Positions 6,974-36,562 of a DNA stretch of 40,795 nt are shown piece after piece. The stretch comes from an uncultured cyanobacterium (GTDB lineage: Bacteria > Cyanobacteriota > Cyanobacteriia > CACIAM-69d), in contig CALGDE010000120.1 of assembly GCA_937883785.1 (NCBI GenBank), positions 1 to 40,795 on the forward strand, given 5' to 3'. The notes below the pieces were generated by a model. It was not told the origin of the DNA and ran no database searches. It saw only the letters and a list, made by a program, of their open reading frames with translations. A program made the position numbers and the translations under genes. How positions within the stretch are numbered: position 1 is the first letter of the stretch; each line of letters opens with the position of its first letter.

Positions 6974-7642
6974 ATGCTGCGTCGTGGAAGTGCTCTGCTG
7001 ATTCTTCTTGCTTTAACCGCTTGCACCAACTCAGCGCCTTCATCGGACGCAGAAGCGTTGCCTGCTGCCCAAGGGGCCGCTGCATCTAGTTCTCCACAGC
7101 AAAGTGCGGAAGCCAGCCCTTCAGAAGGATTAAGCTACGACAACTTCCTGACCCTATCCTTCGATGATTCCCTGGAAAGGGTGCAGGAAAAACTGGGTAT
7201 GGACGGGGAATTGTCGGGCACTGCCAATCCCGAAACTGGGCTTGGAGATACCTACGCTTTTCCCAACCGTGATGCGATCGCCCAAGGTGGCATCCCCTTT
7301 GTCAGTGTCTCTTTCGACAACGAAGGTAAATTGCTGTCAACGCAACAGTACGGTCTCGCCATTCCCCAAGGAAATATCAAACTAGAGCAATTTAATCAGG
7401 TCAAAGTGGGAGAAATGAAACGCCAGGACGTTGAAAAAATCTTTGGTGTTTCGGGCGTTCTCGGGGGCAAAACTCGCCCAGATAAAAATGCGATCGCCAC
7501 CTATGGGGACGAAATTGGCAACAATTTCAACTACCAATTTATGAGTTCTGACGGTTCTTTAGCGGTGATTTCCGTCGACGACAATGACCTAGTAACCAAT
7601 CAGGTTCAGGAAAATACGAAATATCAGCCGCCTGCTCAATAG
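6974..7642 (+). CDS. Lipoprotein with two BamE/BLIP-like repeats
   Basis: A 222-residue exported protein. The N-terminus MLRRGSALLILLALTAC is a lipoprotein signal with lipobox LTAC, so Cys17 is the likely lipidation site. A low-complexity Ala/Ser/Pro linker follows. Two similar modules come next, each with a short helix of the form (x)VQEKLG or DVEKIFG, then strands ending in (F)DNEGKL or SSDGSL. This resembles the SmpA/OmlA (BamE) and beta-lactamase-inhibitor-like fold, so a binding or assembly role at a membrane is inferred; the actual partner is unknown. ATG at 6974 was chosen because it follows CAGGA and places the signal peptide at the start; the in-frame TTG at 6941 only adds 11 residues before it. 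It lies 121 bases after leuS. Confidence 0.7.
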   Translation: MLRRGSALLILLALTACTNSAPSSDAEALPAAQGAAASSSPQQSAEASPSEGLSYDNFLTLSFDDSLERVQEKLGMDGELSGTANPETGLGDTYAFPNRDAIAQGGIPFVSVSFDNEGKLLSTQQYGLAIPQGNIKLEQFNQVKVGEMKRQDVEKIFGVSGVLGGKTRPDKNAIATYGDEIGNNFNYQFMSSDGSLAVISVDDNDLVTNQVQENTKYQPPAQ

Positions 7643-7669
7643 CCTGGTTTAAAACCAACGGCAGAGATT

Positions 7670-7706
7670 CTACAGCGTGAATTTTTCGTTTTGTTTTGCG
7701 CTGTAG
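7670..7706 (+). terminator. Stem-loop after the lipoprotein gene
   Basis: CTACAGCG (7670-7677) and CGCTGTAG (7699-7706) are a perfect 8-base inverted repeat around a T-rich 21-base loop. It begins 27 bases after the lipoprotein stop. There is no T tract after the stem, so Rho-independent termination is uncertain; it may instead protect the mRNA end. Confidence 0.4.
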
Positions 7707-7771
7707 GAAAAGACTGGCGATTAGCGATCGCCTGAGCGAAATAGAAATTGCAGGTTTTCTACCGGTGATCT

Positions 7772-8317
7772 ATGGCAACTCAACGGCTCGATGGTTTGGA
7801 TGTGGCGGCGGTGTAAACCAGTGATGACGCAACTCCCAAAGAGGTGGCGGCGACTGGGGTGGCATGGCTTAAGCAGCAATTGGTTGAATTGCGATCGCAG
7901 CTAGAAATCGAGCGAGCAGAGGGCGTGCCGGATTTGGCAACCTTGGAAGCGAGGTTGACCAAGGCGGATCGGAAGGCGGAAAAGCTAGCGACGAAGGTAA
8001 TCAAAACCAAGCAACAGTCTAAGCAGCGGAAGGCAGAAATTGCGGAGTGGAAGCTTTGGTACGACGGCATCGGCAAGCTGGATAAATCCGAGGAACATAC
8101 AAAATCACTGGCGGAAACTTGGTGGCGGTCTGAGGCGATCGCCACCCTGGAATCCAAAATTATTCAGCTTGAGGCGGAGCAGTTGGAAGCGCTGACAGTG
8201 GTGGAGAAAATTGAGGCGGTGAAAGCGGGAGTTTATGCGTTGCCTGTGGATCAAGATCCTCGAGTTGTGGAGCTGGAAGGGGCGATCGCTACGATGGAGC
8301 AGTTGGGTTGGGTTTAG
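7772..8317 (+). pseudogene. Coiled-coil protein gene with an in-frame stop at codon 15
   Basis: The frame starts with ATG at 7772 (MATQRLDGLDVAAV), meets TAA at 7814-7816, and continues open to 8317 in the same frame. The downstream part is Lys/Glu/Gln-rich and predicted to be largely helical coiled coil (LKQQLVELRSQLEIE onward), ending VVELEGAIATMEQLGWV. The only in-frame start after the stop is GTG at 7844, which has no separated ribosome binding site. The gene is therefore either inactivated by a nonsense mutation, expressed from a weak internal start, or read through. Its 3' end overlaps the end of the convergent oxidoreductase gene by 29 bases. The family was not recognised. Confidence 0.5.
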
Positions 8318-9554
8318 CGCCTGATCCGTAGGCAAAAGACAGGCTCGGCTTTGTGATAGCAGGGACAATGCCGTTGGAAGCCAATTTACCTCCATATAAA
8401 TTCCGAGCCACCGGTCCCACCTGCAATGCGGTCCACGGACCCATCACAAAAAGTTCACAGCCGGGCCAGCGCAGATGCTTGTCCAACAGCGGTAACCCAT
8501 GGACTGTTTCGATTGGATATTGTGCCAAAACATCCGCCAATAGGGGCTCCGTCTGGATATCTAGCGTTGTGCCCGTGGCGAGCCAGATGCGGTGAATAGG
8601 TTGATGGGCCAGACATTGATGGACCTCCTGGGTTCCACAACACACTGTCCAAGCATCCCCACGCCAATGGGCATCGGAAACCTGACAGTGTTCGTACAAG
8701 GTGATGTGTCCCTGGCGTTGCAATCGCCGAAGTTGCATCATCATGGCAGGCGTCACCGAACCACCATCCCGAGCCTGCTGCACCATTTGCCAGCGAGTTT
8801 CCATATCAGGCTCAGCATAGAATCCCTTTAAATACTTGGGACCCAGCCACCCGGGCTCCGCATCAAATATCTTTTCTCGAAACGTTCGTCGTGCCATCAT
8901 CAGCACCTTTGCACCTCGCTTCACCGCCCCGATCGCCAAATGCCCACTGGATAATCCACTGCCCACAATCAGCACCGTTTCACCGGTCAGGTCTCCCAAC
9001 TCCGGCAGTCGCACTTGATAGGCGTGGCGTAATTTTCCTGACGGGTTTGCCTGAATGGCAGTTTGTGCCCAGCGAGGATAACGAGGCTGACCACCGCCCG
9101 TTGCCAGCACAACGCGCCGCGCTAACACTGTGGCTCCCGTGGACAGGGTCAGTTGAAATCGTGAAGGTTGACTGGATAGGGGCTCTAAACGGACAACTCG
9201 TGCGGAAACCACGTGATTTTGCAACTGCCAACGTTTCACTAGGCGTTGGCAAAATTCTTGGAACAGACCAGTGCCGGGGCGATCGTAGGGAGGATGGAGT
9301 TCCTGGGGGCGTCTTTCGGCGAAGTTGCGCAAAGCATAAGCGTTTGGATCCGGGTGATGGACGGCGGGCGATCGCAACTCGTCAATTTCCTGGGCTGCAA
9401 ATTGCTGGTGCCACTGGGTCATCCAAGTGCCGCTGGGGTCGAATACTTTGATGCGATCGCGCAGTTTCGCCTTTTTTTGCAACACGTGGGTCACCAAGGT
9501 CAACGCCTGGGGACCGGCACCAATAACGGCGATATCGGTTTGCAACTGCGCCAT
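8289..9554 (-). CDS. FAD-dependent oxidoreductase, lysine/ornithine N-monooxygenase-like
   Basis: A 421-residue flavoprotein. The N-terminal dinucleotide site is VIGAGPQALTL (residues 10-20). A second nucleotide-binding motif, VLIVGSGLSSGHLA, lies near residue 195, and ATG-type motifs appear as VLATGGG and IWLATGT. This two-nucleotide layout matches flavin monooxygenases of the SidA/IucD/PvdA type and relatives, which use NADPH and FAD to hydroxylate a substrate; the substrate here cannot be told. The start is the ATG at 9554, preceded by GAAGA. It is transcribed away from the G3E GTPase gene, with a Fur/Zur-type palindrome 55 bases before its start, so metal-starvation control is likely. Confidence 0.75.
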   Translation of the reverse strand: MAQLQTDIAVIGAGPQALTLVTHVLQKKAKLRDRIKVFDPSGTWMTQWHQQFAAQEIDELRSPAVHHPDPNAYALRNFAERRPQELHPPYDRPGTGLFQEFCQRLVKRWQLQNHVVSARVVRLEPLSSQPSRFQLTLSTGATVLARRVVLATGGGQPRYPRWAQTAIQANPSGKLRHAYQVRLPELGDLTGETVLIVGSGLSSGHLAIGAVKRGAKVLMMARRTFREKIFDAEPGWLGPKYLKGFYAEPDMETRWQMVQQARDGGSVTPAMMMQLRRLQRQGHITLYEHCQVSDAHWRGDAWTVCCGTQEVHQCLAHQPIHRIWLATGTTLDIQTEPLLADVLAQYPIETVHGLPLLDKHLRWPGCELFVMGPWTALQVGPVARNLYGGKLASNGIVPAITKPSLSFAYGSGAKPNPTAPS

Positions 9555-9608
9555 AGTCTTCTTTCGATTTAAACCCGAATCGGTTCAGGGAAACTGAATT
9601 ACTATGGG

Positions 9609-9627
9609 AATGATAATCATTCTCATT
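9609..9627. promoter_or_regulatory. Fur/Zur-type operator between divergent genes
   Basis: The 19-mer AATGATAATCATTCTCATT contains the perfect 13-base palindrome AATGATAATCATT (9609-9621). Shifted two bases left, GGGAATGATAATCATTCTC (9607-9625) matches the classical Fur box GATAATGATAATCATTATC at 16 of 19 positions. Cyanobacterial Zur sites look nearly the same, so the regulator cannot be told from sequence. It lies between the starts of the oxidoreductase (9554, minus) and the G3E GTPase (9791, plus) and could control both. Confidence 0.8.
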
Positions 9628-9790
9628 CTTGTTTTGCAAGTCCGTAATTACCGTCTTTAGCTGTGGAGCTGCATTCAGAATTTTGCGAAACCATATCACC
9701 GTTCAGCAGCGCCGATTTTGAGAATGACTCTCCCTTGTTGCTCCTGTGTTCGTGCCAGTGAGCGTTGCCGTTTTTTCAACAACTAGAGTT

Positions 9791-10975
9791 ATGAATCGGA
9801 TTCCCACCGTTGCTCTCTGCGGCTTCCTTGGCTCAGGGAAAACGACCCTGATTCGGCGTTGGCAATGCGACGAAGCCTTGCGTGACGCAGCATTGATTGT
9901 TCACGATCTCAGCGAGTTCGCCGTTGACGCCGAGTTGCTTTCAATAGAGGAGTTAATGCCTACTGCAGGTCGCTTCGCTGCTCGCGTGGCGGCTCTGCAT
10001 GGCGTCCATGCACGGGAACGTCTTCACGCCTCCGTAGGAAAAACTCTTAATGAGATCTCTGAATTTGATCCTGTCCCGCCTCTCGTCCTATGCGAAAGCA
10101 CTGGTGCTGCCCGCCCGTGGCCACTGATCAAAGCCCTCACGCAGAATAAGCAATTTTTTCTAAGACATTTCATTGTCACTGTCGACGCTCTGAACCTCCA
10201 TCGCGATTTTGCGGATGGCCGCGTTTTCACTGGCGAGTCCTCTGGTTCTCAAGATGTGGCGCTTCGTCATGCCGCCGATATTCTTGTTGAGCAGATTGCC
10301 TTCGCTACCGTGATCATCCTCACCAAGATCGACACCATTCCGCAGTCCGCTGTCGATGCTCAGGTGCGCACTCTGCAAAAGTTCCAGCCACGGGCAGCGA
10401 TCGGGCTATCGGCCCATGCCGGACTGCTTCTGCCGCAGCTTGAGGAAACCCCAGCACCAAAGCTCTCCGCTTTAAAGAAGTTGGCAAAACAGCTCGATCT
10501 GCCTCAAAAAGCCTCCACCGCCGCCGATATTGAAACCCTGGTCCTGCGCGATCCGCGACCGTTCCATCCAGAGCGCTTGCACGAAGTTTGCCGCAGCGAA
10601 TTGAGCACTGGAGTTTACCGCACCAAGGGTTTTCTGTGGCTCGCTTCGCGCCCCGGTCATTCCTTACTTTGGGAGCAATCTGGCAGTCAGATCACCCTTG
10701 AAATCAGAGGATTTTGGCGATCAGAAATTGCCCTTAATCGGGAAGGGAAGCTGTTTGCTGATGAAGCTGAGCAGATGAGGGCGGAACTCAAAAACGAGCA
10801 TCCTATCTTTGGCGATCGCCACAATGAGCTTACGTTTATCGGTCTCAAGACGGCGATCGAATCCTTCTCCTCTGCCCTTGAGGACGCCCTCTGCACCGAC
10901 GAAGAAATCACCGCCTGGCAAAACGGTGAAACCTTTCCAGACCCGTGGCCCCAATCCATTCGCAATATCAAGTGA
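9791..10975 (+). CDS. G3E-family (COG0523/CobW-like) GTPase without the CxCC motif
   Basis: A 394-residue P-loop GTPase of the family that delivers metals, mainly zinc and cobalt, to client proteins. Walker A is GFLGSGKTT (11-19), the ESTGAA block is at 102-107, and the guanine-specificity motif is TKID (168-171). The C-terminal CobW_C domain has HPERL, YRTKGFLWLA and GDRHNELTFIG. The metal-binding CxCC motif, normally about 30-50 residues after Walker A, is absent: the region around residues 50-75 has no cysteine at all. ATG at 9791 gives MNRIPTVALCGFLG, the normal family start; a GTG at 9746 would only add 15 residues. The Fur/Zur-type box upstream suggests expression under zinc or iron shortage. 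Confidence 0.88.
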   Translation: MNRIPTVALCGFLGSGKTTLIRRWQCDEALRDAALIVHDLSEFAVDAELLSIEELMPTAGRFAARVAALHGVHARERLHASVGKTLNEISEFDPVPPLVLCESTGAARPWPLIKALTQNKQFFLRHFIVTVDALNLHRDFADGRVFTGESSGSQDVALRHAADILVEQIAFATVIILTKIDTIPQSAVDAQVRTLQKFQPRAAIGLSAHAGLLLPQLEETPAPKLSALKKLAKQLDLPQKASTAADIETLVLRDPRPFHPERLHEVCRSELSTGVYRTKGFLWLASRPGHSLLWEQSGSQITLEIRGFWRSEIALNREGKLFADEAEQMRAELKNEHPIFGDRHNELTFIGLKTAIESFSSALEDALCTDEEITAWQNGETFPDPWPQSIRNIK

Positions 10976-17480: not shown

Positions 17481-17525
17481 TCCTATGAACAGTTTTCCTA
17501 CCAACAGCTTTCCTACGAACAGCCA
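17481..17525. repeat. Three tandem 15-base repeats
   Basis: TCCTATGAACAGTTT, TCCTACCAACAGCTT and TCCTACGAACAGCCA follow one another. They span the junction between ccmO and the end of the convergent RTX gene, and the last unit includes its final codons. Confidence 0.7.
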
Positions 17526-19309
17526 CTGGCAGAGGCGCTCAGGGCCGAAGATAAATCAGGCGATAGGGTTACGGTGTAATCAAAAGGCGACGATCCTGAG
17601 CAGTTGAAGCGAGTGCGATCCGCGCGCAGGGGCGAGAAAAACGAACTGGCATTGACCACCACATTGCCGCTGCCGTCAAAACTTAAGTTATTCACCCGTA
17701 AAGTGTTGGTGCGCCCGCTGCTCAATTCTGCCCGTAAGTAAGTGGCCTGTTCAATGGCTCCTGTGTTGGGGTTAAGCCTGGCCAGCACCGACACTGAAGG
17801 ACCACCGCCATTGCCATAGCTGTTTATCCAGCCGCTGCCAGAAAAGCGTCGGAAATCCGGCGCCTGTGCCCCGTCGATACTAAACACCGCATATAAATCC
17901 CTTCCGCCATCCCACAGCAATCCTCGGGCGACGCTGTCCGCGCCACCGCTTTCGTAGTTATCGCCCCCAAGCCAAGTGCGTACTCCGTTATCGAATCGGG
18001 CAATACGCGGATTTTGATTGTTACCGCTCACTTGGGCATAGCCCGCCACAAAGGTGGTGTTGCCTTGGGAGACTGCTGCGTTGCCGCGACTGGTTAAAGC
18101 GCCCAAAGAGTCGCCGTTGTTAAGAAGATTGGCTCCGCCCACATCAGCAAGGGATGCGCCACCGGGGGCGGGGGTTGGGTTGGGCGTGGGTATTGGGGTT
18201 GGTGGGGTAGATGTCGGAGTGGGAGTAGAAGCGGGGGCTGGGGATCCGCCGCCGCCAGGGATACTGCCAGGAGCGGCAGTTCCACCGGAGGTGGCGCCGC
18301 CACTCGGGGCAGAGTTGGGTGTAGAAATTCCGCCGGAAATAGGAGTGCCACCGGTTGCGGGGGGTGGGGAAGCGCCGGGAATGGGGGCGGAACCGTAATT
18401 GGGCAATGTGGTGGGTTCACCAAAGTCCACGCCGGCAAGCTGAGTATTGATGGTATTTCGAATAACCCCCAGAATTTCACCGGTGGCAATCTGTCGAACA
18501 ACGGTGCTGTTGGGAAGGGCTGCGCTGGGTTCCAGGATTACGTCGCGCAAGGTAATGCCACCTCCTAGCTGGATTTGGTCAACACCCCGCTCAAAGTCCG
18601 CCACCATATCGCTCAGAAGTTCGGTTTGGTCGCCAGCTCCTGGTCTCAGCACAAAGCGATCGCTCCCTGCCCCTCCAAAAAGGGTGTCCTGCCCTAAATC
18701 CCCGGACAGCAGGTCACCGCCCAAATCCCCATAAATGAGGTCATTACCTTTACCGCCAAATACGGAATCGCTATCTCGCCCGCCAAATACCGTATCGTCG
18801 CCTCGGTTTCCTCCCACAAAATCGTTGCCCAAATTGCCGTTAATCAAATCACCATCGCGCCCGCCCAGGAGAAAATCCTCATCCCGCCCGCCAAAAATGG
18901 AATCATTGCCTTGATTGCCGAACAGGGAGTCGCTTTCGCGATTGCCAAACAAAATATCAGCCCCTTCTAATCCCAAAGCAGAATCATTGCCGCTGCCCCC
19001 AATAATGGTGTCGTTAGCGGCAGTGCCCGTTAAAACATCGTCGTTGCTAGTGCCGGTGGTGTTGAGATTGCGGCGATCGCCCGCCGACAGCGATCGGCGC
19101 TCCCCTAATACAGGAGGCAAAATAGCATGATTTTCATCATCGGCAAACACGGTAATAGGCGTTAATAAAGACACCCCATGTACGGAAGTATTGCCGTCGA
19201 GCCAGATGTTAAATCCCACTGCTGAAGATGGTGTTGAGTCCCACTCTGTCCCCGCTGTGGTGGCGCGGGTGGACGGGGCTGGAGACGATGTTAGGTTGAG
19301 GAAATCCAC
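17513..19309 (-). CDS. RTX (hemolysin-type calcium-binding repeat) protein, paralog 1
   Basis: A 598-residue acidic protein. Residues from about 88 to 225 are a run of Gly/Asp nonapeptides of the GGxGxDxLF type (IIGGSGNDSALGLEGADILF and following), which fold as a calcium-binding beta-roll. A region RFVLRPGAGDQTELLSDMVADFERG follows, then a linker rich in Pro, Gly, Ser and Thr (about 310-385), and a C-terminal domain of about 190 residues with two cysteines (FNCSG and the final GCS). There is no Sec signal; RTX proteins usually leave by type I secretion, but no such exporter is nearby. The start is GTG at 19309. It is 569 bases from, and clearly a duplicate of, the gene at 19878-21521. Nothing shows toxicity. 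Confidence 0.88.
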   Translation of the reverse strand: MDFLNLTSSPAPSTRATTAGTEWDSTPSSAVGFNIWLDGNTSVHGVSLLTPITVFADDENHAILPPVLGERRSLSAGDRRNLNTTGTSNDDVLTGTAANDTIIGGSGNDSALGLEGADILFGNRESDSLFGNQGNDSIFGGRDEDFLLGGRDGDLINGNLGNDFVGGNRGDDTVFGGRDSDSVFGGKGNDLIYGDLGGDLLSGDLGQDTLFGGAGSDRFVLRPGAGDQTELLSDMVADFERGVDQIQLGGGITLRDVILEPSAALPNSTVVRQIATGEILGVIRNTINTQLAGVDFGEPTTLPNYGSAPIPGASPPPATGGTPISGGISTPNSAPSGGATSGGTAAPGSIPGGGGSPAPASTPTPTSTPPTPIPTPNPTPAPGGASLADVGGANLLNNGDSLGALTSRGNAAVSQGNTTFVAGYAQVSGNNQNPRIARFDNGVRTWLGGDNYESGGADSVARGLLWDGGRDLYAVFSIDGAQAPDFRRFSGSGWINSYGNGGGPSVSVLARLNPNTGAIEQATYLRAELSSGRTNTLRVNNLSFDGSGNVVVNASSFFSPLRADRTRFNCSGSSPFDYTVTLSPDLSSALSASASGCS

Positions 19310-19387
19310 AGAAATAGTACTCGCAAAGGATAAATAGCACCGATCTAGAACACACCCCTGTGGGATTGCCGATGGGGCAAAGTCCCG

Positions 19388-19410
19388 CTGGCGTTAAGCA
19401 TAAACGCCAG
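19388..19410 (-). promoter_or_regulatory. Stem-loop upstream of RTX gene 1
   Basis: CTGGCGTT (19388-19395) and AACGCCAG (19403-19410) form a perfect 8-base stem with a 7-base loop, about 80 bases before the RTX start. It may lie in the leader of the transcript. No T tract follows, so it is not a normal terminator. Confidence 0.45.
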
Positions 19411-19776
19411 GAAAACAATACTCCGGCGATCGCGGTCTAAATGTGATATTCACTACGACTAACTTTGCGAAAGAATCAAGGTGTTTTCAGGAAGATCCTT
19501 CGGCAGTTTTGTGAAGATCTGTCGATGAAAAAGTGCGATTTTCGAACGCCCAGATGGACATCCCTTGCATCACTTTTGCTAAGGAGCTTCTATTTAGACA
19601 GGACCTAAGCAAGATATGCCGTTTGAGTCCAAAAACAAACGTTGCATCGGCTTCCCCCTCAGTCCACCCTCGATAAAGGGACTTTGCGTAAGTCCTGCTA
19701 GATTCGCCATGCCCTTGCGTGTTATCCACTGAGTGCCAGAAGCTTTACGCAGTGGGCAGTATACGCCCTTTCAAAA
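19411..19776. other. Intergenic region between the two RTX genes
   Basis: About 365 bases without a convincing gene. A minus-strand open frame of 80 codons here (19487-19729) has no ribosome binding site or recognisable motif and was not called. The promoter of RTX gene 1 probably lies in the lower part. Confidence 0.4.
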
Positions 19777-19827
19777 CAAAAAATATTAACTCTCAAAACC
19801 TCTACAGCTAAAGGCTTTGAGAGTTAA
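19777..19827 (-). terminator. Rho-independent terminator of RTX gene 2
   Basis: TTAACTCTCAAA (19786-19797) and TTTGAGAGTTAA (19816-19827) form a perfect 12-base stem with an 18-base loop. On the minus strand the stem is followed by TATTTTTTGTTTT. It begins 51 bases after the stop of the RTX gene at 19878, so it is well placed to end that transcript. Confidence 0.85.
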
Positions 19828-19877
19828 ATGCTGACAGTCCCCAATTGGTGGGGCTAACTGAGAGTGATCCCTGCCGC

Positions 19878-21521
19878 TTAGGTGCAGCGATCCGCCGAAG
19901 CGCTAATGGCGGTGGATAAATCGGGCGATAGGGTCAAGGTGTAGTTAAAGCCCGACGGTCCGGTGCAATTAAAGGGACTACGATCCACCCGCAGCGGTGA
20001 AAATGCCGTCACGGCGTTCACCACCACATTGCCGCTGCCGTCGAAGCCCAAGCCGTTCACCGTTAGGGTATTGGTGCGGCCACTGCCCAACTGAGCTCGC
20101 AGGTAGGTGGCTGACTGGATATTCCCCGTTGCCGCATCCAGGCGAGCCAACACCGCTGCTCGAGGTCCGCCGCCAATGCCGTAGTTATTCAGCCAGCCGT
20201 TGGTGGCGAACCGTCGGAAATCTTGGCTGGCATCGCCCTGGGCGCCGTCAATGGTAAACACCGCGTATAAATCATTGGCACCGTTCCACAGCAAACCGTG
20301 CCCCCGACTATCGGCACCGGTGGTTTCATAGGTGTTCCCTAGCCAGGTCAAATTGCCGTTATCAAACCGTGCTAAGCGCGGATCCTGGTTGTCCGCATTC
20401 ACTTGAATAAAGCCCGCCGCAAAACTGGTGGCGCCCTGGGAGGCGATCGCATTGCCCTGACTGCTCAAGGTGGTTAACGACTCCGCCCCGCTTAAGGGCT
20501 CCGAGTCGGGATCATTTACGCTAGCTAGCACCGTAGGTGTCGGTGCGGGAGCTGGTGTGGGCGCAGGCGTCGGGGCGGGCGCAGGCATAAAACCGGGCGG
20601 CGGCGGACCGAAATTGAGGGTCGCCGTGGGTTGTCCAAAGTCTGCCCCCGTAAACTGCACATTAACGGTGTTTTGAATAACCCCCAACGCTTCCCCGGTG
20701 GAAATTTGCCGCACCACCGTATTGCCCGTATTGGAAGCACTAAATTCCAAAATTATGTCGCTGAGGTTCACACCCCCCCCCAGCTCAATAATGTCGGCTC
20801 CCCGCTCAAAGTCCGCCACCAAATCGCTTAGGGTATCCAGGGGATCCCCTGCCCCTGGCCGCAGCACAAAGCGATCGCGCCCCGGTCCCCCAAAAAGGGT
20901 ATCCCGTCCCAAGTCACCGGATACCAGGTCATCCCCCAGATCCCCAAACACTAAATCATCCCCCTGACCGCCAAATACGGAATCATTATCGCGCCCGCCA
21001 AACACGGAATCATTACCTAGGTTGCCGCCCACAAAATCATCACCCAGGTTGCCGTTAATGATGTCGCCATCGCGCCCCCCCAGCAGAAAGTCCCCATCCA
21101 TACCACCAAAGATCGAGTCATTGCCTTGGTTGCCAAACAGGGAATCGCGCCCACGATTGCCAAATAAAATATCCGCGCTTTCTAAACCGCGCACAAAGTC
21201 ATCACCGCTGCCGCCAAAAACGGTGTCGTTAAAGGCGGTACCCGTCAGCACATCATTGCCATCGGTGCCGATGCTATTTAAATTGCGGCGCTCCCCCGAG
21301 AGCCCCCGCCGATCTTCCCCAGGGACCAGCAAATTCAGATCATCACCGTCCGCGCTTATGGGAATAGGGGTAATTAAAATATCTGGGGCAATTGCCCGGT
21401 CTGTGTGGGATTCGGACCCCGCTGAAAATGGATCCAGTATTCCATCAGTGCCCGTTGAGGTGGCGCGGCTAGAGGGGCTAGAAGCAGCGCTTGGAGAAAG
21501 TGCAAAATCAAAGAAGCTCAC
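19878..21521 (-). CDS. RTX (hemolysin-type calcium-binding repeat) protein, paralog 2
   Basis: A 547-residue duplicate of the 17513-19309 protein. Order is the same: a short variable N-terminus, Gly/Asp nonapeptides (about 85-225, for example DVLTGTAFNDTVFGGSGDD), a FVLRPGAGDPLDTLSDLVADF segment, a Pro/Ala/Thr linker and the same C-terminal domain of about 190 residues. The two cysteines (FNCTG and the final RCT) are kept. The linker is shorter and made of PAPTPAPTP units, which explains most of the length difference. GTG at 21521 is preceded by GAGG, a good ribosome binding site. A strong terminator follows, so it is transcribed apart from paralog 1. An exported calcium-dependent surface protein is the best guess. 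Confidence 0.88.
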   Translation of the reverse strand: MSFFDFALSPSAASSPSSRATSTGTDGILDPFSAGSESHTDRAIAPDILITPIPISADGDDLNLLVPGEDRRGLSGERRNLNSIGTDGNDVLTGTAFNDTVFGGSGDDFVRGLESADILFGNRGRDSLFGNQGNDSIFGGMDGDFLLGGRDGDIINGNLGDDFVGGNLGNDSVFGGRDNDSVFGGQGDDLVFGDLGDDLVSGDLGRDTLFGGPGRDRFVLRPGAGDPLDTLSDLVADFERGADIIELGGGVNLSDIILEFSASNTGNTVVRQISTGEALGVIQNTVNVQFTGADFGQPTATLNFGPPPPGFMPAPAPTPAPTPAPAPTPTVLASVNDPDSEPLSGAESLTTLSSQGNAIASQGATSFAAGFIQVNADNQDPRLARFDNGNLTWLGNTYETTGADSRGHGLLWNGANDLYAVFTIDGAQGDASQDFRRFATNGWLNNYGIGGGPRAAVLARLDAATGNIQSATYLRAQLGSGRTNTLTVNGLGFDGSGNVVVNAVTAFSPLRVDRSPFNCTGPSGFNYTLTLSPDLSTAISASADRCT

Positions 21522-23649: not shown

Positions 23650-24672
23650 ATGCAGACATATGATAATCCCAAAGTCACTTATGACTGGTGGGCCGGCAAC
23701 GCCCGGTTTGCCCAGTTGTCGGGGCTTTTCATTGGTGCTCACGTGGCGCAAGCGGCGTTGATCACCTTTTGGGCAGGCTCTTTTACCTTGTTCGAGCTGT
23801 CCCGCTTCGACGCCACCCTACCCATGGGTGAGCAAAACCTAATTCTTCTGCCCCACCTAGCAACCCTTGGCTTAGGCGTTGGCGATGGTGGAATGATTGT
23901 TGATACTTATCCTTACCTGGTGGTAGGTGCTGTACACCTAATCTCCTCCGCCGTATTGGGCGCTGGTGGTTTGTACCACACCCTAAAAGGTCCTGAGGAT
24001 CTAGGCACCGCCACCGGTCGTGCCAAGAAGTTCGACTTCGATTGGGGCGATCCCAAGAAGCTCGGCTTTATCTTGGGTCATCACCTACTATTCCTTGGCT
24101 TCGGTGCTTTGTTGCTGGCTGGCAAGGGCATGTATTGGGGTGGTCTTTACGACTCCGTAACCCAAACGGTACACACCGTTACCCCGAATTTGAACCCTGC
24201 CACCATTTATGGCTATCAAACCCACTTTGCTACCATCACCAGCCTAGAAGACCTCGTTGGTGGTCACGTATACGTGGGCTTTATGTTGATTGGCGGCGGT
24301 GTCTGGCACATCGTGGTTCCCCCCATGAAGTGGGCGAAGCGGGTGCTTACCTTCTCCGGTGAAGCGATTCTGTCCTATTCCTTGGGCGGTATTGCGTTGG
24401 CTGGTTTCGTTGCGGCATATTTCTGCGCTGTGAATACCTTGGCGTATCCCCCTGAGTTCTACGGCGCTACGTTGCAGGTGAAGCTTGGGGTTGTGCCCTA
24501 TTTTGCTGATACGGTTGATTTAGGCGTAGGTCAGCACTCTGCTCGTTGCTGGTTGGCTAATGCCCACTTCTTCTTGGCGTTCTTCTTCTTGCAGGGGCAC
24601 CTCTGGCACGCTTTGCGCGCTTTGGGCTTCGATTTCCGCCGCATTGAGCGGGCTCTGGACGCTACTTCTTAA
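23650..24672 (+). CDS. isiA: Iron-stress-induced chlorophyll-binding protein IsiA (CP43')
   Basis: A 340-residue thylakoid chlorophyll a-binding protein of the CP43/Pcb family with six membrane helices. Under iron shortage IsiA forms antenna rings around photosystem I and disperses excess excitation. Conserved chlorophyll-ligand histidines appear within the helices: [50 protein letters not shown] and [13 protein letters not shown]. It lacks the large lumenal loop of true CP43, as expected for IsiA. ATG at 23650 follows GGAGGA with 6 bases of spacing. isiB follows 124 bases later, the usual isiAB order, which separates it from a pcb antenna gene. Confidence 0.95.
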
Positions 24673-24745
24673 GTATTGGTTCAGGTATCGCTACAAATTT
24701 GCAATAGACTTTCGGCACAGGCGATCGTTAAACTAAGTAAAGAAA

Positions 24746-24765
24746 GTTCGTTAAGTTAAGCGAAC
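24746..24765 (+). promoter_or_regulatory. Small stem-loop between isiA and isiB
   Basis: GTTCG (24746-24750) and CGAAC (24761-24765) enclose a TTAAGTTAAG loop. It may be one reason why isiA and isiB mRNA levels differ, as seen in other cyanobacteria, but a 5-base stem is weak evidence. Confidence 0.3.
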
Positions 24766-24796
24766 ACTTTGAAGTAAAACAGTTCAGGATAATTTC

Positions 24797-25309
24797 ATGG
24801 CTAAGGTTGGACTATTTTTCGATACCCAAACGGGAAAAACTGCAGATATCGCTGAGCAGATTCAGTCTGCCCTCGGTGGTGACTCTGTTGTTGAGCTAAA
24901 CGACATCAACGATGTTGAGCTTGACAAGCTTAGCGAGTACGAGTGCCTGATTGTTGGATCGCCTACCTGGAACGTTGGAGAGCTACCTGATGGTTGGGGT
25001 GGCGTCGTCGACGATCTCTCCGGCTTGGAATTGGCAGGTAAGAAGATCGCTTACTTTGGCGTGGGCGACCAAATTGGTTACGCCGACAACTTCTTGGATG
25101 CCATGGGAATCCTTGAGAAGGAGCTTGCAGAAGCAGGTGCTGAGACTGTTGTGAATTGGTCCACTGATGGCTATGAGTTTGAGGCCTCCGAGGCTCAGCG
25201 CGGCGACGTATTCGTCGGCTTGGGCTTGGATGAGGATAACCAGCCTGAGAAGACCGAAGAGCGTATTGCTGCGTGGTCTGAGCAAGTTAAGACCGCTTTC
25301 AGCCTGTAA
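24797..25309 (+). CDS. isiB: Flavodoxin
   Basis: A 170-residue long-chain flavodoxin, an FMN electron carrier that replaces ferredoxin under iron limitation. The phosphate-binding loop is TQTGKT (10-15), the Trp-containing FMN loop is SPTWNVGELPDGW (about 55-67), and the second loop is GVGDQIGYADNF (about 87-98). The inserted strand region typical of long-chain members is at about 120-140. The ribosome binding site AGGA lies 8-9 bases before the ATG. It belongs with the preceding isiA in the iron-stress operon and is followed by an unusual set of overlapping hairpins. Confidence 0.97.
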   Translation: MAKVGLFFDTQTGKTADIAEQIQSALGGDSVVELNDINDVELDKLSEYECLIVGSPTWNVGELPDGWGGVVDDLSGLELAGKKIAYFGVGDQIGYADNFLDAMGILEKELAEAGAETVVNWSTDGYEFEASEAQRGDVFVGLGLDEDNQPEKTEERIAAWSEQVKTAFSL

Positions 25310-25321
25310 GCCTTAGGTTTC

Positions 25322-25408
25322 GGGAACCAATGCAATGGATTTTGGAAGTTAGTCCAAAAGGTTGCCATCGTATTGGTTCCCAAGCTTGCTTGAGTTTGAA
25401 CCAATACG
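25322..25408 (+). promoter_or_regulatory. Two mutually exclusive hairpins after isiB
   Basis: Stem A pairs GGGAACCAAT (25322-25331) with ATTGGTTCCC (25372-25381), 10 perfect bases. Stem B pairs CGTATTGGTTC (25369-25379) with GAACCAATACG (25398-25408), 11 perfect bases. The segment 25369-25381 takes part in both, so only one can form at a time. This begins 12 bases after the flavodoxin stop. Confidence 0.65.
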
Positions 25409-25483
25409 TACGTCGCGTTGTTCTCTTGGATTGACTTTCTTCTCTCTGAAAGGTCACGGGTAGCAGTAGGTGAAGTGCAAGCA

Positions 25484-25508
25484 AGCAACACTTATTGCTA
25501 CTTTTTTT
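25484..25508 (+). terminator. Probable Rho-independent terminator of isiAB
   Basis: AGCAA (25484-25488) and TTGCT (25495-25499) form a 5-base stem with a 6-base loop, followed by seven T (25502-25508). It is downstream of the alternative hairpins. The stem is short but the T tract is strong. Confidence 0.6.
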
Positions 25509-25943
25509 ATTGGGTCGCTTTGATTGAGCTTCCTTCGTAAGTGATTTTCTCGTAGGACTTCGAGCCTAATTAATGACACCTCACCTTTAGGGGGTTACGA
25601 GGTTCCTAAGTAGACCTAACTCTAAATGACTCTCTCGTTTTGGATGATTTAAGTGTTGGGTTGTCGAAAAAAAGTAATTTCTTTATCGCCTTTTTTGTGG
25701 ATTGCTGGTCCATGGCATTGGGTGGCTAGCGATGAAGCGCTGGAAGGCATGGAGTTTTCTCAAAGTTTACTAGCGGGTCCGAGTGTTGACGGAGAACAGG
25801 AAGGTTATTGAGCGTATTTTTTAGGGCTTTTCTAGAGATGCCCCTATGTTGTCTATTGACTAGCTTCGTTTGAGCAAGCTTTTTGACACCGTTTCTTGCC
25901 TTTTTTGACTGTCGTTCTTCTGTGTCGTTTTTGTTACGGTCTT
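25509..25943. other. Intergenic region before the CRP/FNR gene
   Basis: About 435 bases with T-rich stretches and no gene that I can support. Promoter elements for the downstream regulator must lie here but none stands out. Confidence 0.4.
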
Positions 25944-26609
25944 ATGTCAACTGCTCATTTTCGATCGCGCCCTAATTACCGTCAGCCTGCCTCTGGGCTG
26001 GAGCTGGTGCCGGAGCGTTTGGTGCCTGGTCGGCGATCAGCGATCGCTGGGGGATCGATGAGGGAATCAGAGTCTTGGAAAACCCTGGAACGGACCTTTG
26101 TGCGGCGATCAATTTTGCCGCTAGCGTCGAAGCAACTTTGGCGCATTGATCAGGGTATTGTGCGCACGCTGGCCCATTCCGGCACCGATGAGATGGCGAT
26201 GGTGCTGGGTTTTTGGGGAGAGGGGAGCGTTGTGGGATTGCCCCTGGCTGGAGACGTGGCACTACAGGTGGAGTGTTTGACGAAGGTTAAGGCGTCGCTG
26301 GTTACAACGGAAATTTTTACGGATCCCCAAGTGCTACTGTCCCATTTGCAGCAGCAAAGTCGGCTAATGGCAATTCTGCGCCGGGGACGTATGGGCGATC
26401 GCCTACTGGAATTTTTAACGTGGTTTGCCCAGGAATTTGGCTACTCCACCCCTCAAGGTTGGTCAGTGCCATCGTTGCTGACCCACCAAGAGTTGGCAGA
26501 AACTTTAAATTGCTCTCGGGTGACGGTAACTCGTCTCCTTAACACGGCAGTTAAGGAAGGGAAGGTGCTGCGATCGCGCGGTGAACTGATTATTCCTGCT
26601 GAAGCGTAG
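25944..26609 (+). CDS. CRP/FNR-family transcriptional regulator
   Basis: A 221-residue regulator. Residues about 55-140 form a shortened, divergent cyclic-nucleotide-binding-like beta domain; the phosphate-binding cassette of true cAMP receptors is not recognisable. A dimerisation helix (about 135-162) follows, then a winged helix with the helix-turn-helix LTHQELAETLNCSRVTVTRLL (about 179-199). The SRVTVTR recognition helix resembles that of NtcA-type factors, but the N-terminal domain does not fit NtcA. ATG at 25944 was chosen; an in-frame upstream TTG would add only a hydrophobic 16-residue extension. It follows isiAB in the same direction after a terminator, so a link to iron control is only suggested by position. 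Confidence 0.82.
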   Translation: MSTAHFRSRPNYRQPASGLELVPERLVPGRRSAIAGGSMRESESWKTLERTFVRRSILPLASKQLWRIDQGIVRTLAHSGTDEMAMVLGFWGEGSVVGLPLAGDVALQVECLTKVKASLVTTEIFTDPQVLLSHLQQQSRLMAILRRGRMGDRLLEFLTWFAQEFGYSTPQGWSVPSLLTHQELAETLNCSRVTVTRLLNTAVKEGKVLRSRGELIIPAEA

Positions 26610-31064: not shown

Positions 31065-34000
31065 TCACTGTTGCATAGTGATAGGTAAATCCACCGTGAA
31101 TACCGCACCTTCCCCTGGGGTAGAGTCACAGGAAAGGTTGCCATCATGGTTGCCAGTGACAATTTGGTAGCTAATAGCAAGCCCCATTCCTGTGCCCACG
31201 CCAACGGGCTTGGTGGTAAAAAAGGGATCGAATATTTTTGCCTTGGTTTCTTCCTCAATGCCGGTGCCATTATCTTGAACGGTAATGCAAACTCGATCAT
31301 TGGGAGCAATCTCGGTTTTGATGGTTATTTCCCCCTCAAAGTTTGGCGCGCTGGAGCCTTTTTGACGATCATTAACTGCATCAGCGGCGTTAGAAATTAA
31401 GTTCATAAACACTTGATTCAAGGGACCTGCCAGGCACTCAACCGCTGGAAGATTCTCATCGTATTGTTTGATCAGTCGAATTTTATGGGTGCCTGTACTC
31501 CCGTCTAAACGACTAGCCACAATCGTTAAGATATTGTCAATGCTGTCGTGCAAATTGATTCTCTTTCGAGAAGACTCATCGAGGCGCGAGAAGACTCTCA
31601 AAGATTGCACAATGGTTTGAATTCGACTTGCCCCATTCCTCATGGATTGAACTAGTTTAGGGAAGTCCTCCATTAAATATTCAACGTCGTTTTCTTTGAT
31701 AAATGCGTCAATTTCACCCGCAGTATCAGGGTGATAAACTTCGTACAGCCGCAGTAGTTTAGTTAGGGTTTCAAAGTAGGCCGAGGCTGGGCTGAGGTTG
31801 CCATAAATAAAACTAACGGGGTTGTTGATTTCGTGGGCAATACCAGCTACCAATTGCCCTAACCCAGACATTTTTTCTGCTTGAACTAGCTGTAGCTGGG
31901 TTTCTTTAAGCTTTTCGTAGGATCGCTCTATTTCTTGAGTTTTCCCTTGGGATTCTTTATAAAGCTGTGATTGATTGATAGCGATCGCCACCTGAACCCC
32001 AACTTCCTCTAATAAATTAATCGACTCTGAATCCCAACTGTTCGTATCAGCAATACGCCCCAAATGTAAGAGCCCTATGCGTCCACCGTAGGTGCGAATG
32101 GGGACACAAAGATAGTTTGAAATCCCCAAATCGTCAAAGAAAGACCGGGGCAATTGATCATCATTTTCATTGCCCTCAATAACTGTATCAATCGACTGAC
32201 ATTGGTAAATTTCGGCGGCGGCGATCGCCTCCAAAAGCGACTCGTAGGGATTCAGTACATAGTCCCCTATCCAGGTGGGAATTTCGGACACTTTCGATTC
32301 CACTACCACGGACCATGCCTTTCGCGAAGCGCCATATTCGTACCAGCCAAAGGCGCAAATATCAGCGTCAACTTTTTCAAATAAAGCTTCCACCGTATTG
32401 CGCAAAATCGTATCTAAATCTAGAGAAGCACGTATGGCAAAACTAACTTCGTGCAGTAACTGCGTTTTATTTAATAGGATTCGCAGTTTATCTTCTGATT
32501 GTTTGCGTTGGGTGATGTCTCGGCACACACAAATAATCAGCCCCTTTTCTAGACGGGTGACGGAAAATTCTTGGAGAAACGTAGATCCATCTTTTTTGGT
32601 GGCGATCGCCTCCCCCTGCCAAAGCCCTGTTGTGTTTAGACTTGACATCATGTCACGGGAAAGCCGCTCATTTTCCTCTGGAGAGTAGAGCTTGGTATAT
32701 GAAGACCCCACCAGTTCGCTGGGGTCTTCATAGCCAAATAACTTCAGGTGAGCTCGGTTGACGTACAAAAATCGACAGTCCTTTAAAATACCGATCCCCT
32801 CAACGGAAGCTTCGATCGCCGCTAACTGCCGAGCGATCGCCTGCTCCGCTTCCTTACGCTCCGTTATATTCTGAAAAATTCCCACCAACCCCATAACGTC
32901 CCCCTCTAAGTTCCGTAGAGGAGCCTTGTTCGTTTCGATATATAAGGTTTTGTCATCCGGCGTTTGGATGTTTTCAACGATACCCAACTTGGGCTGCCCT
33001 GACTCCATGACGGCGCGATCATCCGACTGATAATTAGCCGCCATCTTTTCTGTGGCAGAAAAGTCAAAATCTGTTTTGCCAATCATGGCCTCGGGCGATT
33101 CCAACCCCAACTGCTCTGCCGATGCCTTGTTTCCACCAACAAATACCGATTGACGATCCTTCCAAAAAATCGGCATCGGCACCGTGTCGAACACCGTTTG
33201 CATAAACTGCTGTTGCTCCTGAAGCTCCACCGTACGTTCGCGCACTTTGTCTTCCAGATCCTGGTTCAAGGCGGCTAACTCCGCCTCAGCTTCCTGGCGT
33301 CGTTTGAGCTCCTCCTGAGCTTCTTCATAGGCGAAGGTTTGCTGAATAGCGATCGCCGTGTGTTTTGCGAGCTGTCGAGACCAGGAGATTTCATCAGCTT
33401 TCCACTGACGAGGCACATCCTGGTAACTGCTGATCATCAGCCCCCACAGCTTTTCATTCACCACAATGGGCACCATCAATTTGGCGCGAATATCCAGCCC
33501 CGTCAGCAGTTCCTGATGACACATACTCATGGCTGCCTCACGGATATCGCTTACAATGCGCACCCGCCCCTGGCGATAGGGCTCCAGCCATTCCGGCACG
33601 ATGCAGGGATCGTGGGCTTCAGAGTAGAGCAGCGATCGCCCCCCTTCGATAATCGATTCCGCCACCACCACGCCGCTTAGGTCCGGACGCAGTTCGTAAA
33701 TAATGACGCGATCGCACCCCAACAGCCGCCGCATCTCCGTCACCGTCGTATCCAGAATCGCCGGTAAATCTGAAGACGAATAAATTTGCCCAATAATTTT
33801 CGACAGGGCGTTTTCCCGCGCCGCCAAAATTTCCAGCACCTCAGTCAACTGCTCCATTCCCAAAGTGCCATCGCCTGGTTGGGCCGAGCTAAAACGCTGA
33901 AAAATTAGTGCCTGCCGCAAACACTCATCACTCAAAAGCCCCGTCAAAGCCCCATCCTGCCCCACCACCGGCACATAACTTGCCCGGTGATATCGAAGAA

Positions 34001-34409
34001 AATCATAGGTGGTGGCTAAATCCGTCAAATACTCTTCCCGCAGCACCAGCGCCGGAGTTTTAACCACGTCTTTCACCTGCGTATGCCAAAAGGGCACCGA
34101 GTCCGCCCCCAACTGCATCAGGTCCTGGGTGGTTAAAATTCCTAGCACCTGGCGGTCATAGTTCATCACCACCACGCAGTCCGTGCAGGCTTTACCGTGT
34201 AGCTCTTGAATGGCTGTTGCGGACAGAGCGCCGGGAAATCCCAGATTTTCGTCCAGGTAGCTGGCAGAATCTTGGGGGATCAACGCTATACGCTGCTTTT
34301 CCAGCATGCTGGCCACGTCGGACAGAAACACTTGGGCAGAGATTGACACAGGGTTTCTGGTGATCGCCCAGCTGGGAAAGGAATTATCAGATGACATAGA
34401 CAATGACAC
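31065..34409 (-). CDS. CBS-GAF(cyanobacteriochrome-like)-PAS-PAS-GAF histidine kinase
   Basis: A soluble 1114-residue kinase. Two CBS domains lie at about 15-170 and the first GAF domain at about 195-357. That GAF carries DPCI with Cys269 and the canonical MCHQELL with Cys297-His298, in the context [12 protein letters not shown]...LMVPIVV...LWGLM...PRQW, which is the bilin-binding GAF pattern of cyanobacteriochromes. A coiled coil (355-400), two PAS domains (about 401-520 and 521-640) and a second GAF (about 650-812) without the CH motif follow. HisKA has His859 in [10 protein letters not shown]; the ATPase has [30 protein letters not shown] and [10 protein letters not shown] light-sensing kinase is inferred. 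There is no response regulator beside it. The sequence contains SYQD where most bilin-binding GAFs have HQC. Confidence 0.9.
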
Positions 34410-35062: not shown

Positions 35063-36562
35063 ATGGGCACAGCCAGCTCTAATCGTCGATTTGCTCTTTC
35101 GCCTCGCCTTTTAATTGAGCGGGGATTGATTCTACTGGCGTGGCTAAATTTAGGTCTGGTGGCGTTTAACGTTTCCTATGTGCCCTTGCGCTCCCTCTAT
35201 CTACGCGCCGCTTTGTATTTGCGCGATCGCGGTGAGGAGCAACCTTGGTTGGGGGAGATTGTGGGACCGCCGGGGGAAGTGTCTTTGTTTTACGATCCCA
35301 TTAAAGGTATCGAGCCGGAGCGGGACACTCAGCGCTACCTGCGAGCGGTGAACACACTGACGGAAACTCTAGAGCTGAAAGGGTTGGAGTCGGAGGAAAT
35401 TCCGCCTCTTCTGCGGGATTTACAGACGATGAGCGCGGAAATTATTTCTCAGAATCCCTTTGCGATCGCCGATAAAACCGGCACCCTAGAGCAAATTAAA
35501 AACCGCATGAGCGAGCATATGGAGATTGAGTCCTCCAGCCGCGCTTTTAATCGGTTTTGGAGCACCTCCAACCTAAAGCAAAAGGGATGGCAGGACGAAC
35601 TGGAATTTTTCAACAGTGAAATCCGGTTTCCGATGCAAACCAACTACTTTCGGAAAACGGGAGAAGATGGAAACCCTGCGGACTTTTTCGGCATTATTGA
35701 TACGCCGTTTGTCATTATTTTCGCGATCGACTTTCTGTTTAGAACCCTCAGAACCAAGCGACGTTACAAGGATCTATCCTGGTCCTCTGCGGCATTTAGT
35801 CACTGGCAAGATTTACTATTTTTGCTGCCGTTCCTACGCTGGTCGCGAATCATCCCCGTAATTACCCGCAGTAACGAAGCAAATTTCCCAAACTTGGAGC
35901 CGGTTCGAAAGCTAGTGGGACGTAGCTTTGTGGCTAGTTTTGCGGCGGAGTTAACGGAAGTAGTAGTTGTAGAAGTGGTGAGTAGCGTCCAGCGCACGGT
36001 GAAGTCCGGAGTGATTTCCGAGCAGTTGCTGAACACCACCAGCGGCAGCTATGTGGAAATCAACGACGTTAACGAGGTACAGGCAATTACTGATCGCATC
36101 CTTACCCTTTGTGTCAATGATGTTTTGCCAGAAATTCGACCAGAATTAGAGGCATTTTTAAGTCAACAAATTCAGTATGCAATGTCCCAGTTGCCGGCAT
36201 ATCAAGGATTATCCGCATTGCCGGGAATGGGGCAGTTACCGGTTCATCTTGCCCAGCAGTTAGCCAGCAGTTTAGCAATGGTGGCAACGGGAGTTCCTAA
36301 GGTTGCCTATGAAACGGTAACAAGTCCTTTGGATCCCAAGTCCCAGGAGCTGCTTGATGAGCTGATTGAAAACGGTGGAGATGCATTTCGGACACAGCTA
36401 ACGAAGCCAGAAACCCAGGAAGAATTGCAGGGGCTAATTTGGGATTTGCTGGAGGAGCTGAAGTTAAGCTATGTGAGGCGATCGCCCGAAACAGTGGACT
36501 CTTTGGAACTTCTTGAGCAAACGGCTCAACTGCGCCGAAAAGCCAAAACTAAAAAGGCATGA
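35063..36562 (+). CDS. Conserved membrane protein with a channel-like helix pair
   Basis: A 499-residue protein. One membrane helix is near the N-terminus (about 18-40). After a large charged region come two more helices (about 208-226, FFGIIDTPFVIIFAIDF, and 246-266) followed by FLRWSRIIPVITRS. The FAIDFLFR... and WxDLLFLLPFLRWSRIIPVI pattern recalls helices S3 and S4 of voltage-sensing ion channels, but there is no pore helix or selectivity filter, so a channel cannot be claimed. The C-terminal 200 residues are helical and soluble, ending in RRKAKTKKA. ATG at 35063 follows GGAGGGTG. It probably is a cyanobacterial family of unknown function. Confidence 0.72.
   Translation: MGTASSNRRFALSPRLLIERGLILLAWLNLGLVAFNVSYVPLRSLYLRAALYLRDRGEEQPWLGEIVGPPGEVSLFYDPIKGIEPERDTQRYLRAVNTLTETLELKGLESEEIPPLLRDLQTMSAEIISQNPFAIADKTGTLEQIKNRMSEHMEIESSSRAFNRFWSTSNLKQKGWQDELEFFNSEIRFPMQTNYFRKTGEDGNPADFFGIIDTPFVIIFAIDFLFRTLRTKRRYKDLSWSSAAFSHWQDLLFLLPFLRWSRIIPVITRSNEANFPNLEPVRKLVGRSFVASFAAELTEVVVVEVVSSVQRTVKSGVISEQLLNTTSGSYVEINDVNEVQAITDRILTLCVNDVLPEIRPELEAFLSQQIQYAMSQLPAYQGLSALPGMGQLPVHLAQQLASSLAMVATGVPKVAYETVTSPLDPKSQELLDELIENGGDAFRTQLTKPETQEELQGLIWDLLEELKLSYVRRSPETVDSLELLEQTAQLRRKAKTKKA

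Follow-up and report, generated by a model that had tools for sequence, protein, structure and literature searches.

Does a single kinase of an uncultured cyanobacterium respond both to light and to the energy state of the cell, and if so, by what kind of photoreceptor? The question is raised by a gene in a 40,795-nucleotide stretch of DNA, here termed the window, which the initial annotation, made from the sequence alone, had read as encoding a kinase with a probable dual-cysteine cyanobacteriochrome GAF domain and a pair of CBS domains. This anatomy was backed by every test run.

Architecture and genomic setting of the kinase

The reading frame at 31065-34409 lies on the minus strand, as do all features of the kinase given below, and is open without disruption. 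A start at the ATG at 34397, yielding a gene of 31065-34397 and a protein of 1110 amino acids, is more likely than the longer alternative at the GTG at 34409, because the alignable protein of a same-genus orthologue likewise starts MSSD. The domain order is CBS-CBS-GAF-PAS-PAS-GAF-HisKA-HATPase; two GAF domains, two PAS domains, HisKA and HATPase_c are recovered by Pfam, with the CBS domains scoring weakly. Downstream of the first GAF domain (GAF1), the PAS domains span residues 407-520 and 538-634 (32508-33191) and are followed by a second GAF domain (approximately residues 650-826; 31932-32462) that is devoid of a bilin Cys-His motif, and then by HisKA and HATPase_c (31080-31859). The HisKA histidine is His859 (31833-31835) and the N and G boxes are intact, such that both domains and the catalytic motifs of a sensor histidine kinase are present. 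Comparison with the same-genus orthologue establishes strong purifying selection over the whole protein, with a dN/dS of 0.107 overall, 0.060 in the kinase and 0.077 in GAF1, the lowest value among the sensory domains.

Inspection by eye of the open reading frame lists of 20 loci revealed no evident adjacent response regulator or conserved neighbour. The neighbours instead vary between genomes and, with no adjacent response regulator seen, the kinase is probably an orphan. Within the window, positions 35063-36562 encode a 499-residue protein with zero Pfam matches that is conserved at the same position in a same-genus genome. Further away, a gene for a CP43/IsiA-type photosystem II protein is followed by those for a flavodoxin, an arrangement resembling the isiA-isiB genes of iron stress, and a Crp-family regulator (23650-26609), and the products of two adjoining genes (17513-21521) contain RTX calcium-binding repeats. 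In a same-genus metagenome assembly (L074:5455-8814), the orthologue has an in-frame TAA directly after the GAF core (QWKSD*), which severs CBS-GAF from PAS-PAS-GAF-kinase and represents either an assembly error or a real split.

A dual-cysteine cyanobacteriochrome domain

GAF1 (approximately residues 190-360; 33330-33842) is identified as a cyanobacteriochrome-type bilin domain by sequence and predicted fold. Its best sequence relatives among solved structures are bilin-binding cyanobacteriochromes, including the chemotaxis receptor TePixJ (Tlr0569; PDB 4glq/3vv4), with which it shares 41% identity. TePixJ, unlike the protein studied here, is no kinase. In an AlphaFold2 model covering residues 5-370 (pLDDT 78 on average), GAF1 superimposes on TePixJ 4glq with a TM score of 0.88 and a deviation of 1.7 Å, and VIA-align matches it to the bilin-binding GAF domains of phytochromes and cyanobacteriochromes with Z scores of about 22 and rmsd values of about 2 Å over 160-175 residues. 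The canonical bilin cysteine, Cys297 (33519-33521), aligns with TePixJ Cys522 and is followed by His298, so that homology to cyanobacteriochromes is joined by the Cys-His pair. The second, DXCF-position cysteine is Cys269 (33603-33605), the counterpart of TePixJ Cys494. The 28-residue distance that the initial annotation had pointed out between the cysteines of DPCI and MCHQ equals, in the alignment, that between the DPCF and ECH motifs of TePixJ. The Asp, Trp and Cys-His residues are likewise common to both proteins, and the pocket residues Asp267, Trp274, Tyr278 and His298 are all retained in GAF1. Chance cysteine spacing, also considered, was ruled out by the alignment and a tree, since the arrangement is conserved in 26 GAF domains of many genera and the domain is under purifying selection. 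Three bilin-reductase genes are present in the genome (a 4.84 Mb cyanobacterial assembly) and a supply of phycocyanobilin is therefore expected.

The phenylalanine of the DXCF motif, Phe495 in TePixJ, is isoleucine in GAF1, as had been remarked from the sequence alone; the exchange is real and extends, as I, V or M, across the whole clade described below. Because of this, GAF1 is filed, on sequence grounds, as a DXCF-like dual-cysteine variant and not as a strict DXCF domain. Membership of the DXCIP lineage, which is defined by a D-X-C-I-P motif and the absence of the canonical cysteine (PMC5578081), was also considered. Despite sharing the isoleucine after the second cysteine, GAF1 reads DPCIVP and keeps Cys297, which rules out this assignment. 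On another contig of the same genome (C157, approximately 7300-10200; L008-L016), an open reading frame of about 1440 residues contains at least five similar tandem GAF domains, in several of which the two cysteine positions read D-D-C-D and C-Y.

An altered ring-D pocket shared by a clade

The photoproduct colour of cyanobacteriochromes is set by contacts to ring D of the bilin. His553 of TePixJ occupies the D-ring histidine position, which we take, following established phytochrome alignments, to be equivalent to that of His290 in Cph1. The latter residue hydrogen-bonds ring D (PMC12420706), and in crystals of TePixJ the side chain of a further contact, Asn535, reorients as ring D turns (PMC6955287). 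Both positions are exchanged in GAF1, where Asn535 aligns with Lys310 (33480-33482) and His553 with Ser328 (33426-33428). The replacement of the usual HQC had been recognised by the initial annotation, and the A-H-Q-C stretch of cyanobacteriochromes does read S-S-Y-Q here. That annotation had the loss of the histidine only; the change of the D-ring asparagine to lysine is the other half of the altered pocket. By counting, the Lys310 position (Cys + 13 residues) is also that of Tyr334 of AnPixJg2, a residue listed in PMC7727823.

For phylogenetic analysis, 158 GAF domains were collected, partly by a contig scan with a [KN] pattern that biases the sample towards K or N at the ring-D position. 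Within the tree, GAF1 belongs to a monophyletic clade of 26 domains (FastTree local support 0.997; 49/50 bootstrap resamplings), with Microcoleus, Lyngbya, Tychonema, Phormidium, Geitlerinema and Spirulina among the genera represented. The 26 were chosen by both cysteines, an I, V or M residue and the serine, and their common ancestor covers exactly these domains and no others. All 26 have the cysteines at a spacing of 28 and serine at the His553 position, with Ile (12), Val (10) or Met (4) in place of the DXCF phenylalanine; lysine at the Asn535 position, which was not a criterion of choice, also occurs in every one. Among 134 dual-cysteine GAF domains, lysine is paired with histidine in 0 of 43 Lys-type domains and asparagine with histidine in 74 of 81 Asn-type domains, counts that are phylogenetically non-independent and drawn from a scan favouring K and N. 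On account of this disparity, the two ring-D positions appear to change together.

The CBS pair and its precedents

The presence of CBS domains, claimed from the sequence alone, was confirmed by profile, by matches to solved structures and by predicted fold. The pair (residues 13-168; 33906-34373) corresponds to the first of the two CBS pairs found in related proteins. A profile of these relatives, from which the window protein and its paralogue had been left out, scored the N-terminus of the kinase at 67.9 bits for the first CBS pair and 33.7 for the second, and the family profile matched solved CBS structures with a best E value of 1e-20. A separate model of the pair (pLDDT 85) found its closest fold matches among CBS pairs, including the AMP-bound structures 4gqy and 9s4v, so that homology and fold both identify a CBS (Bateman) pair. 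As the N-terminus scores as a first pair and the relatives carry four CBS domains, the second pair has probably been lost in the lineage of the window.

The G-h-x-T-x-x-D motif forms the nucleotide contacts of CBS domains. It is present in the first CBS domain as T93-T-Q-D96 (34122-34133), and both the same-genus orthologue and the four-CBS relatives retain it; in the second domain, the corresponding residues are S160-D-E-C163 and the aspartate is absent. The same genome encodes a 661-residue paralogue of CBS-CBS-GAF-kinase architecture (L066:5259-7244, contig C128), with DPCV and CHQ motifs, which is also present in a sister genome (L073). Here T-N-R-Q replaces T-T-Q-D, such that the nucleotide motif is lost and neither CBS domain has one.

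The suggestion of the initial annotation that the joining of CBS domains to a photoreceptor is unusual did not hold: CBS domains lie upstream in the same frame of 71 of the 158 related GAF domains, including 41 of the 43 Lys-type domains, and the same is true of the probable Tlr0924/SesA, a studied blue/green cyanobacteriochrome (PMC4067208; SesA in PMC8846402). One genome (G089) has a GAF domain matching TePixJ with 100% identity along 138 residues, and also a locus (L160) encoding CBS domains, PAS, a DPCF/CY GAF and GGDEF, 14.6 kb from another dual-cysteine cyanobacteriochrome. This locus is almost certainly Tlr0924/SesA, because output domain and map position agree. The combination of CBS domains and a DXCF cyanobacteriochrome is thus already known, and the distinctive part of the kinase is its altered D-ring pocket and not its established architecture. 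In common with the kinase, the L160 protein has CBS domains ahead of a dual-cysteine GAF domain; however, it has four of them, a PAS domain before the GAF, a GGDEF output, DPCF/CY motifs and a normal His-containing D-ring stretch, and its GAF is only 35% identical to GAF1. The four-CBS cyanobacteriochrome kinases of the clade genera are closer, with GAF domains 51-63% identical to GAF1 and a kinase output where scanned, but have two CBS pairs as opposed to one and other PAS, GAF and receiver content. Plasmid records yielded nothing closer than distant relatives of 39% identity at best, and a search of part of the photoreceptor literature found no description of this CBS-linked GAF clade and no spectra or binding data.

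A proposed photocycle and competing readings

We consider it likely that the gene encodes a light-gated, soluble orphan histidine kinase with a dual-cysteine photocycle, possibly modulated through its CBS pair by adenine nucleotides. GAF1 would attach phycocyanobilin covalently via Cys297, and Cys269 would add to C10 of the bilin and be released upon C15 isomerisation. The dark state would then absorb blue light and the photoproduct longer wavelengths, as in DXCF cyanobacteriochromes, with Lys310 and Ser328, in place of Asn and His at ring D, expected to make the photoproduct differ in colour or stability. The signal could reach the kinase through the helical linkers of PAS-PAS-GAF2. In the weakest step of the scheme, the CBS pair before GAF1 probably retains one adenine-nucleotide site and may set kinase output or dimer geometry. 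As judged by homology, the dual-cysteine photocycle in GAF1 is well supported, and adenylate modulation weakly so. Several points count against this reading: photoconversion could suffer from the missing D-ring His and Asn; the kinase may manage without nucleotide sensing, because the second CBS domain has no aspartate and the paralogue has the motif in neither; and no adjacent response regulator is evident.

The altered pocket also admits a different photocycle, in which the bilin is held by Cys297 and the reversible C10 adduct usual for Cys269 fails to form. The rebuilt pocket would then give a single-linkage photocycle with a different colour, or else a fluorescent state of low photoactivity. 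The exchange of the DXCF Phe, the D-ring His and the D-ring Asn throughout the clade speaks for this, as does the DXCIP lineage, in which the cysteine before isoleucine is put to a different use (PMC5578081). However, the canonical cysteine that DXCIP proteins are missing is present in GAF1, and Cys269 is matched at the exact TePixJ position in 26/26 clade domains; the cysteines were a selection criterion, but no member under the common ancestor is devoid of them. We regard this photocycle as improbable. Far more so is a GAF1 that binds no bilin and acts as a light-independent domain: GAF domains of this type without the cysteines do exist in the same genome, so that such losses happen, but the pocket Cys-His, Asp, Trp and Tyr are retained in GAF1 at a dN/dS of 0.08.

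The role of the CBS pair is more finely balanced. It may serve structurally, in dimerisation or as a spacer, or bind another ligand, with the kinase sensing light alone. The weak Pfam score, the single intact motif of two and the TNRQ of the paralogue in place of TTQD argue for such a role, and retention of the first motif in the same-genus orthologue and the four-CBS relatives argues against it; we place its likelihood slightly below even. It is possible, if rather doubtful, that the kinase represents an uncharacterised lineage of CBS-linked dual-cysteine cyanobacteriochromes that hold ring D by Lys and a non-His residue in place of Asn and His, and that couple a photocycle unlike that of DXCF members to adenylate level in one kinase.

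A clade that keeps both thioether cysteines and has both ring-D residues swapped provides a natural test of how dual-cysteine photocycles are tuned. If the CBS pair does bind adenylates, these kinases would also give a direct view of how light input is integrated with energy state, and the two kinases of this genome, one with the nucleotide motif kept and the other with it lost, form a natural control.
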